A stretch of 64,000 nucleotides of DNA from Afipia sp. (GTDB taxonomy: Bacteria; Pseudomonadota; Alphaproteobacteria; Rhizobiales; Xanthobacteraceae), in contig JAFKEQ010000001.1 in NCBI GenBank assembly GCA_017308575.1, forward strand, positions 744,001-808,000, read 5' to 3'. The notes under the pieces were generated by a model, which was not told the origin of the DNA, ran no database searches, and saw only the letters and a list, made by a program, of their open reading frames with translations. Position numbers and translations under genes: made by a program. Position 1 is the first letter of the stretch, and the number at the start of each line of letters is the position of its first letter. Of this stretch, positions 42,851 through 63,578 are shown one piece after another.

Positions 42851-44032
42851 TCAGTGGCCCATGCGGGCGGATGCCGGATGGCCGGGCACCTTGAAGCGCT
42901 TGCCGGTGTCGGTCACCTTGGTGCCGTTGACTTTCAGAATTGAGAAGTCGCTGTTGAGATAATTTCCGACCAGCAGATATTTTCCGTCCGGTGTGAACAG
43001 CACGGCTTCCGGCAGGCCACCCACTTCGATGTCCTGGGTTTTGGTCACCTTCTTGCCGTCGATGCGCAGGATCGAAACGCTGCCGTTCTTCTGATAGAAG
43101 AACAGGTTCTTCATATTGGAGCCGCGCAGGATCGCCGTTGCCGCGAGATTGCCCTTGGGGCTGACGGCGATGCCTTCGGGACCGTCGCCGACCACGACGC
43201 GGTCGATGAAGCGCGGCGGCTTGGCATCGAGATCAGCAACGCTGACCGTATCGACGCTGCCGTCGGATGAACCGGCATTACCGTTATCGGCGGTCAGTGC
43301 CAGCTTGCCGTTCGGCGTCACGACCACGTTGTAGGGCCAGAGGCCCGCCATCAGGTCCACTTTGTTATAGGCGACCTTGTCGCCGTTGATCTCGAGCACT
43401 GACAGTTTGTGCGCCGGAAATTTCGTCGCCAGCGCACGCTTGCCGTCCGGCGTGAACACGACCTGCGAGACGCTGTCGCCCATCGCGATCGTATCCGTCA
43501 CTTTCACATCGGTGCCGTTGACAGACAGCACGGAAATGGAATTGTCGCCGCGATTGGCGACCAGCGCCATCTTGCCGTTGGGGCTGAAGCTCAGGCCGGA
43601 CGGCTGCTTGCCGCCGGTCACGGTTCCCGCCAGCTTCGGCGGATTGGCCTTCATGTCGATGACATAAATCTTGTTGTCGAGAGACATCTTCAGCGCATCG
43701 CCGTCCTTGGCTACATCGACCGAGTCCGCCACCAGCGCCACCGAGCCCGTCGGATCGATATCGACATTCACCGGCGGTCCGACCACGGAATTTTTGAGAG
43801 GAAGGTTGGCGACGATTTTCGGATTTTCCGGATTGGCGAGATCGACGATCAGCACCGAATCCTTGCCGGCTGGGGAAAGAACGACTTTGCCATCCGCATC
43901 CCACAGCACCTTCTCGTCGTTGCCGACGATCATGAACGGCGCGGCATGTGCAGGATGGAACCCGGCGAGCCCGAGCAGCAGGCTTGCTCCGATGGATAGA
44001 GACGTCACGCGACGAGTGAACATGGTCACCAT
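42851..44032 (-). CDS. secreted beta-propeller protein (YVTN/lactonase-like)
   Basis: A 393-residue exported protein: signal peptide to about residue 30 (LLLGLAGFHPAHA), then about seven repeats of the type FSPNGKMALVANRGDNSISVLSV, VTPNGKLALTADNG and FTPDGKYLLVGNYLNSDFSIL, forming a beta-propeller like lactonase/YncE proteins. No active-site motif is obvious. Such proteins may bind partners or small molecules in the periplasm. It is divergent from the TAXI-TRAP operon across 254 bases and has a good GGGAGG site at its start (ATG 44032, or ATG 44023). Confidence 0.85.
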   Translation of the reverse strand: MVTMFTRRVTSLSIGASLLLGLAGFHPAHAAPFMIVGNDEKVLWDADGKVVLSPAGKDSVLIVDLANPENPKIVANLPLKNSVVGPPVNVDIDPTGSVALVADSVDVAKDGDALKMSLDNKIYVIDMKANPPKLAGTVTGGKQPSGLSFSPNGKMALVANRGDNSISVLSVNGTDVKVTDTIAMGDSVSQVVFTPDGKRALATKFPAHKLSVLEINGDKVAYNKVDLMAGLWPYNVVVTPNGKLALTADNGNAGSSDGSVDTVSVADLDAKPPRFIDRVVVGDGPEGIAVSPKGNLAATAILRGSNMKNLFFYQKNGSVSILRIDGKKVTKTQDIEVGGLPEAVLFTPDGKYLLVGNYLNSDFSILKVNGTKVTDTGKRFKVPGHPASARMGH

Positions 44033-62524: not shown

Positions 62525-62719
62525 ATGGCCGCCGAAGACGACGATAACAAGCCGCGAAAGAAGATCAGCCATGAGATGGGACAGGATCTGTCCGCGCTCT
62601 CCGTCGGCGATGTGGAAGAGCGCATCGCTTTGCTCATGGCCGAGATCGAACGGCTGAAGGCGGATGCCGCAAAGAAGCGCGCGAGCCGTGACGCCGCCAA
62701 TGCGTTTTTCAAAACGTAA
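62525..62719 (+). CDS. DUF1192 family small protein
   Basis: A 64-residue acidic/basic protein of the DUF1192 family: MAAEDDDNKPRKKISHEMGQ, then DLSALSVGDVEERIALLMAE and IERLKADAAKKRASRDAANA, ending in FFKT. The second half is a predicted amphipathic helix. A TGGAGGGAAGC ribosome site precedes ATG. Found near rcdA-type genes in alphaproteobacteria; function unknown. Confidence 0.85.
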   Translation: MAAEDDDNKPRKKISHEMGQDLSALSVGDVEERIALLMAEIERLKADAAKKRASRDAANAFFKT

Positions 62720-62833
62720 ATGCGCGCGGAAGAGGCGTGTTCACATCGTTCTCGCGGTTTCGTGAAATGCAAAGGAACCGTAAAGAGAATCGTTAATTTA
62801 CGACGTATTAAGCTTTCGCGTTTATGACTGCAT

Positions 62834-62931
62834 TGTCCTTGTTTGGACACCGAGTGGCTCCTGTCCACTCTGTTTGACGCCTCCCTGTTATCAACTTTCA
62901 AAAGCCGCCGGTTTCCGGCGGCTCTTTTTTT
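62834..62931 (+). ncRNA. candidate trans-acting small RNA with CU-rich loops
   Basis: Three hairpins in about 100 bases. Hairpin 1: TGTCC-TTGTTT-GGACA (62834-62849). Hairpin 2: GAGTGG-CTCCTGT-CCACTC (62852-62870), whose loop contains CTCCT. A single-stranded linker carries CCTCCC (62880-62885). Hairpin 3 is an intrinsic terminator with a U7 tail. CUCCU and CCUCCC can pair with Shine-Dalgarno sequences, as in known alphaproteobacterial sRNA families with CCUCC motifs. No open frame fits. The promoter was not identified, so a leader/attenuator of rcdA is an alternative. Confidence 0.45.
62903..62931 (+). terminator. intrinsic terminator of the small-RNA candidate
   Basis: A perfect nine-base stem AGCCGCCGG/CCGGCGGCT with a TTT loop, then C and seven T. 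It lies 184 bases past the DUF1192 stop and 141 bases before rcdA. The distance from DUF1192 suggests it ends a separate short transcript. Confidence 0.9.
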
Positions 62932-63071
62932 GCGTCCGGTTTCTTTCCGCGCGGCATGCCGCTGGAAACCATATCTCCTCATTGTTACGCGGCGCGGCTG
63001 GACTCCCGGCCGCGGGCGCGCAATGATTTATTCATCATAAAAAAGAAGCGTAATTGCGTGAGGCGTTAACC

Positions 63072-63578
63072 ATGTCCGATCAGGGCGAAGCTGATCTCGT
63101 TCTCTTGAGCGAGAGGATCACTAATTCACCGGCCTTCGGGCTCCTGTTCAGGGAAGGCATGGATCTCGTCGAGGAGACGGCGGCTTATCTGGATGGACCG
63201 GGCCGCACTGAGGCCAAGGCGCTGGAGCGCTCCGTCAGTCTTAGCTACGCCACCGAGAGCATGCGGCTCACCACGCGCCTGATGCAGCTTGCGTCATGGC
63301 TGCTGCTGCATCGCGCGGTCAAAGAAGGCGAGATGACGCTGCATCAGGCCAACCGCGAGAAGACCAAGGTCAAGCTGACGGCGGCCGATCCGGCGCCCGA
63401 GGAGATCATCCTGAAATTGCCGGAACGCTTGCAGGATCTGGTCGCGCGCTCGATGACCTTGCAGGCCAAGGTGCGCCGGCTCGACGTGGCGATCCATGTG
63501 CCGCCGGCGGATCTCGCGCCGATCGGCAATCCGCTGGTGCCGCAGATGAACATGCTGAAGGCGGCGTTCGAGAGATAA
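63072..63578 (+). CDS. rcdA: RcdA/DUF1465 family protein (CtrA degradation adaptor type)
   Basis: A 168-residue protein of the DUF1465 family, whose Caulobacter member RcdA is an adaptor for ClpXP-dependent CtrA degradation. The three-helix-bundle signature includes FREGMDLVEETAAYLDGPGR and YATESMRLTTRLMQLASWLL, then RAVKEGEMTLHQANREK. ATG 63072 follows TTAACC; the frame extends to 63054. Its presence along with trcR points to a standard alphaproteobacterial cell-cycle circuit. Confidence 0.85.
   Translation: MSDQGEADLVLLSERITNSPAFGLLFREGMDLVEETAAYLDGPGRTEAKALERSVSLSYATESMRLTTRLMQLASWLLLHRAVKEGEMTLHQANREKTKVKLTAADPAPEEIILKLPERLQDLVARSMTLQAKVRRLDVAIHVPPADLAPIGNPLVPQMNMLKAAFER

Follow-up and report, generated by a model that had tools for sequence, protein, structure and literature searches.

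The stretch of DNA analyzed here, a window of 64,000 nucleotides from Afipia sp. (family Xanthobacteraceae, order Rhizobiales, class Alphaproteobacteria), contains a 98-nt interval between a DUF1192 gene and rcdA that can be read in more than one way. A preliminary description of the sequence saw in it a small RNA (sRNA) with exposed anti-Shine-Dalgarno sequences beside a cell-cycle gene or, as no matching promoter had been found, the attenuated leader of rcdA. The question is whether this interval is a gene in its own right and, if so, what controls it and which part of the RNA acts. RcdA is an adaptor for the proteolysis of CtrA, and CtrA is the master regulator of the bacterial cell cycle. 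The features of the locus are as follows.

62525 to 62719, + strand: upstream gene, encoding a DUF1192 protein (PF06698, 83 bits)
62797 to 62811, + strand: CtrA box TTTACGACGTATTAA (TTWA-N7-TTAA), with its 3' edge some 23 nt upstream of the predicted start
62823 to 62828, + strand: -10 element TATGAC, 11 nt past the CtrA box; consensus over 97 loci
62834 to 62931, + strand: predicted sRNA transcript of about 98 nt, equivalent to RF02356 positions of about 45 to 140; start deduced from the -10 element
62834 to 62849, + strand: hairpin 1, TGTCC (62834-62838) with GGACA (62845-62849)
62852 to 62870, + strand: hairpin 2, GAGTGG (62852-62857) with CCACTC (62865-62870), around the 7-base loop CTCCTGT (62858-62864)
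62871 to 62889, + strand: single-stranded linker TGTTTGACGCCTCCCTGTT, the proposed target-pairing seed, with CCTCCC at 62880-62885; near-invariant in 66 sequences
62903 to 62931, + strand: Rho-independent terminator, stem 62903-62911/62915-62923, then C and U7 at 62925-62931
63060 to 63069, + strand: putative target site on the rcdA ribosome-binding site: GAGGCGTTAA, able to pair with linker UUGACGCCUC (one G-U pair)
63072 to 63578, + strand: downstream gene rcdA (RcdA, DUF1465; PF07323; PDB 3CTW RcdA, E 5.8e-33)

The three hairpins, the CCTCCC linker and the U7 terminator are present exactly as first described. The 98-nt strand folds with an energy of -35.9 kcal/mol (z = -5.1), which was equalled by none of 200 shuffles. 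The two small stems together also arose in 4.6% of dinucleotide shuffles and are weak evidence by themselves; the case for an sRNA is built on comparative evidence. In 66 diverse sequences spanning the order, 97.8% of the base-pair cells of the three hairpins hold standard pairs (96.2% for hairpin 1, 100% for hairpin 2 and 97.2% for the terminator). Double compensatory changes were observed at 10 of the 19 pairs, namely at 4 of 6 in hairpin 1, 2 of 6 in hairpin 2 and 4 of 7 in the terminator, and the observed values were reached by 0 of 500 shuffles. As a control, one side of each helix was slid against the other, and the covariation signal was lost. Hairpin 1 keeps its pairing in variants such as GTCC/GGAC, ATCCAG/TGGAT, GTTCAG/TGGAC and ACCCAG/TGGGT, and hairpin 2 has a variable loop. 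The predicted three-hairpin fold is supported by covariation in every helix, the comparison that had been proposed at the outset, and the locus is almost certainly a real sRNA.

The identity of this RNA was explored with an Rfam scan of the whole window, which returned three matches: two tRNAs and the family BjrC1505 (RF02356). The BjrC1505 match lies at 62790-62931 on the + strand, covers the full length of the model (positions 1 to 140 of 140) and scores 131.2 bits against a gathering score of 50 bits, which makes the locus a member of this family. The families that had been suggested for comparison (ar7, ar9, ar14, ar15, ar35 and ar45) gave no match at threshold anywhere in the window, and the same scan contained no match of the EcpR1 or GspR kind. 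The source genome has one copy of BjrC1505. Of 198 genomes in the window's family 173 carry the RNA, as do 245 of 297 in the order, with rare exceptions in one copy each, and the Rfam model recovered it in 25 of 240 genomes of the class; no copy turned up in the Caulobacter vibrioides control genome. BjrC1505, a Bradyrhizobium/Rhodopseudomonas sRNA (Madhugiri et al. 2012), is reported to have been detected by Northern blotting and sequencing, to be expressed in R. palustris and to be less abundant in nodules. The RNA family is already catalogued, and the new points are its promoter, its true seed and its wide spread.

The Rfam model agrees with the locus in sequence, folds and terminator, but differs in that it starts at 62790 and draws structure over its positions 1 to 43 (62790-62831). 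The helices drawn there are paired in just 45-69% of cells, versus 96-100% in the real hairpins. By some measures they score above shuffles, a result that relatedness of the sequences can produce in the absence of structure. This poor pairing is supportive, though not decisive, for reading the segment as promoter. The first positions of the model contain two conserved blocks, TTWAC and TTAA, with variable sequence between them. In the window, the corresponding CtrA box matches at 7 of 8 positions, with TTTA as the first half-site, and a comparable box, TTAA-N7-TTTAC, which shares the TTTAC variant, lies in the promoter of the source genome's own ctrA gene. When unaligned upstream sequence was searched, 95 of the 97 loci of the order had a CtrA box with 7 or more of its 8 positions matching, and its spacing to hairpin 2 hardly varied; the background in dinucleotide shuffles was 9%. 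The same search at the same loci gave 0 of 76 for DUF1192, 1 of 79 for qor, 0 of 66 for rpmE and 17 of 95 for rcdA.

Past the box, the 97 loci share a -10 consensus, TATNAC, at positions 12 to 17. Because TATGAC occupies 62823-62828 in the window, the sRNA is predicted to start near 62834, in agreement with the 5' end guessed in the preliminary description; the promoter that this description had missed is thus present upstream. Given the CtrA box, the -10 element and a start near 62834, the first 40 or so positions of RF02356 are probably promoter DNA and not RNA. The box is conserved in relatives at a constant position relative to the predicted start, as would be expected for a member of the CtrA regulon, and these regularities of sequence make it very likely that the sRNA is CtrA controlled. 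A GANTC (CcrM) site near 62787 was also considered and set aside, being present in just 24 of the 97 loci.

To extend the comparison beyond the order, a covariance model built from the RNA with its promoter left out (R1) was run against 289 genomes of the class and gave matches in 46. Outside the order, most of the stronger matches are preceded by a CtrA box with the expected spacing, and qor, DUF1192, rcdA or rpmE is close by in many of them. The weakest, such as L270, L273 and L277, are without the box and may represent another RNA. A search with the exact linker pattern led to 32 further loci in named genomes, including Kiloniella, Sneathiella, Oceanibacterium, Minwuiaceae and marine Rhodospirillaceae; one is from a probable order member, Chthonobacter, and the rest are from other lineages. 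The CtrA box was present in 31 of these 32 loci (24% in shuffles). As a separate observation, the weak R1 matches at L270, L271, L273 and L277, near position 1501, have another shape, with GAAGCCTCCCTGTYARACTT before the terminator. They are without the rcdA neighborhood and match no Rfam family at threshold, and the box is absent from its usual place in L270, L273 and L277. These four are possibly a separate CCUCCCUGU RNA family.

The linker was then compared with the loop that the preliminary description had singled out. An exposed anti-Shine-Dalgarno element does exist, but the conserved one is not in a loop. Linker UUUGACGCCUCCCUGU is near-invariant in the 66 sequences and GCCTCCCTGT is kept in 95 of the 97 loci. 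By comparison, the loop of hairpin 2 contains CTCCT in 71 of these 97, and just 1 of the 32 further loci has CTCCT 5' of its linker. The invariance of the linker and the variability of the loop point to the linker as the functional element. One copy in the order (locus L262, family f42, near position 1501) is degenerate, carrying GATGCCTCTGTCGACTT, and appears to have lost the CCUCCC seed; it retains the hairpins, the terminator, rcdA and a 7/8 box.

A similar layout is found in the alphaR8 family (MmgR, RF00519, and Caulobacter SisA-D), where an unpaired CCUCCCU lies between hairpin and terminator and, in SisA-D, unpaired UUUCCUCCCU pairs both with a sponge RNA and, close to the start codon, with an mRNA leader (PMC12559287). 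The locus is nevertheless not an alphaR8 member: it scores 23.0 bits at 62856-62938, below the RF00519 cut-off of 41, and its core is UUUGACGCCUCCCUGU instead of the alphaR8 10-mer UUUCCUCCCU. A true RF00519 gene (69 bits) is present elsewhere in the source genome. Caulobacter CcnA has a CtrA box at -23, the same 23 bp as the predicted distance between box and start here, and pairs close to ribosome-binding sites through a C-rich stretch (PMC8959179); it differs in being 182 nt long, in its location at the replication origin and in setting CCCC against GGGG of ctrA and gcrA. S. meliloti EcpR1 and GspR are rhizobial sRNAs acting on cell-cycle genes, but with different loci, structures and seeds (PMC4414408, PMC5928217). 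By analogy with the alphaR8 RNAs, it seems on balance that BjrC1505 would act through Shine-Dalgarno pairing.

Candidate targets were sought with the linker as probe. The ctrA and gcrA leaders (30 genomes each) shared no complementarity to it of the CcnA type, and a search of 21 genomes for the pattern GGAGGCGTCA-N0-8-ATG yielded no set of orthologous sites preceding a gene. The start of pntA has an 11-base match in the source genome (GGGAGGCGUCA) that is absent from the loci of 29 relatives, and this gene was rejected as a target; its start region, GGGAGGCGTCATG at G000:C4:74549-74560 (L127), is a perfect 11-base linker complement in the source genome only. Among the genes tried (ctrA, gcrA, pntA and rcdA), none emerged as a class-wide target. 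Within the window, the best of 52 genes for linker pairing encodes a beta-propeller (lactonase-like) protein at 42851-44032 on the - strand, whose start region carries CAGGGAGGC, a 9-base linker complement.

The S. meliloti sRNA sm84/SmelC671 is 100 nt long, leaves CUCCCUGU unpaired after a hairpin and ahead of its terminator, and has relatives in Bradyrhizobiaceae (PMC3927594); reported as a discrete small RNA, it is located between SMc03988 and SMc03989 (PMC2573895). Together with ReC71 of R. etli it resembles the RNA described here in being chromosomal with conserved neighbors (PMC3927594, PMC2873474, PMC2573895). From the gene order, SMc03989 would be rcdA. As published, size, motif and flanking gene numbers agree, and from position, size and motif the locus is probably the orthologue of sm84/SmelC671. 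The literature examined on sm84, SmelC671 and ReC71 makes no mention of BjrC1505 or CtrA. ChIP-seq of S. meliloti CtrA gave sites in the rcdA promoter region, with rcdA unchanged on CtrA depletion (PMC4433202). If sm84 is BjrC1505, a CtrA-driven sRNA just upstream of rcdA would explain this binding without a response of rcdA.

The position of the RNA is what could suggest an attenuated 5' leader, in which transcription would start upstream and the terminator hairpin would set the amount of rcdA mRNA. The gene order qor(-), DUF1192(+), sRNA(+), rcdA(+), rpmE(-) is found across the order, and in most of its genomes 110-320 nt separate the sRNA from rcdA, which follows it on the same strand. However, the conserved folds are the three hairpins, with no conserved competing antiterminator helix, and the stretch between terminator and rcdA varies in length and is far less conserved than the RNA core. 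In Kiloniella, Minwuiaceae and others, rcdA is found 1.1-4.4 kb downstream, and near the RNA of Sneathiella no rcdA was recognized. The linkage that an attenuator requires is thus not obligatory: RNA, terminator and CtrA box remain together where rcdA is distant, which identifies the unit as a gene of its own, with its own conserved promoter, and makes an rcdA leader highly improbable. It could also be that the TTWA-N7-TTAA box serves a different regulator or a different promoter, for example that of rcdA, the sRNA itself having an ordinary sigma-70 promoter. Sites of the CtrA type are usable by other regulators, one of which could use this same site, and a sigma-70 promoter was predicted for sm84 by Valverde et al. 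(PMC2573895). Against this, the distance of the box is fixed to the RNA and not to rcdA, and the box persists where rcdA is far away. The consensus promoter scan of the locus found no sigma-70 site, and a review table lists neither an RpoD motif nor another promoter motif for SmelC671, which is expressed in nodule zone II (PMC7143759). This reading appears improbable.

A third reading accepts a real, CtrA-driven sRNA but confines its role mainly to the adjoining gene: the RNA would pair with the rcdA ribosome-binding site GAGGCGUUAA, lower RcdA and so shield CtrA, closing a positive feedback. In most genomes of the window's family the linker can form up to 10 contiguous pairs over the Shine-Dalgarno sequence of rcdA, and rcdA ranks second of the 52 window genes for linker pairing. 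This pairing is absent elsewhere, despite the invariant linker there, and the duplex energy is unexceptional, being equalled by 4.8% of 40-nt windows. Moreover, a CtrA half-site, TTAACCAT at 63065-63074, overlaps the rcdA start codon, is kept in much of the window's family and could account for the conservation. A mainly local role is thus unlikely, and the rcdA ribosome-binding site is best regarded as a target candidate in the window's bacterial family only.

Taken as a whole, the observations are most likely explained by an independent, CtrA-activated, trans-acting sRNA of the BjrC1505 family that pairs via CCUCCC with Shine-Dalgarno regions, and the interpretation first given is partly supported. 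In the mechanism that we propose, phosphorylated CtrA would occupy its box (62797-62811) and, together with RNA polymerase on the -10 element TATGAC, activate transcription of an RNA of about 98 nt running from near 62834 to the U7 terminator. This RNA folds, as the covariation shows, into hairpin 1, hairpin 2 and the terminator, with about 32 nt of linker left mostly unpaired. Linker UUUGACGCCUCCCUGU would then pair in trans with the purine-rich ribosome-binding sites of mRNAs from other loci. To judge by its sequence and by the alphaR8/SisA RNAs as analogues, translation of the paired mRNAs would be lowered, probably with Hfq.

These results unite under one family the names BjrC1505, sm84/SmelC671 and ReC71, to the extent that the proposed orthology holds. 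The control and role of BjrC1505 are unstated in the accessible literature, where we found nothing that links this RNA to CtrA; our coverage of it is incomplete, and priority is not claimed. BjrC1505 has a far wider distribution than EcpR1, GspR or, by the present comparison, CcnA. A bolder view, which we consider unlikely, is that it is an ancient sRNA across much of the Alphaproteobacteria and a core post-transcriptional output of CtrA, which in the window's family would also repress rcdA, so that a CtrA-induced RNA blocks CtrA degradation, and to which the CtrA binding upstream of rcdA in S. meliloti would belong. The near-universal CtrA box would place BjrC1505 among the few sRNAs connected with the master regulator of the cell cycle, and the RNA probably links the cell cycle to the control of protein synthesis.
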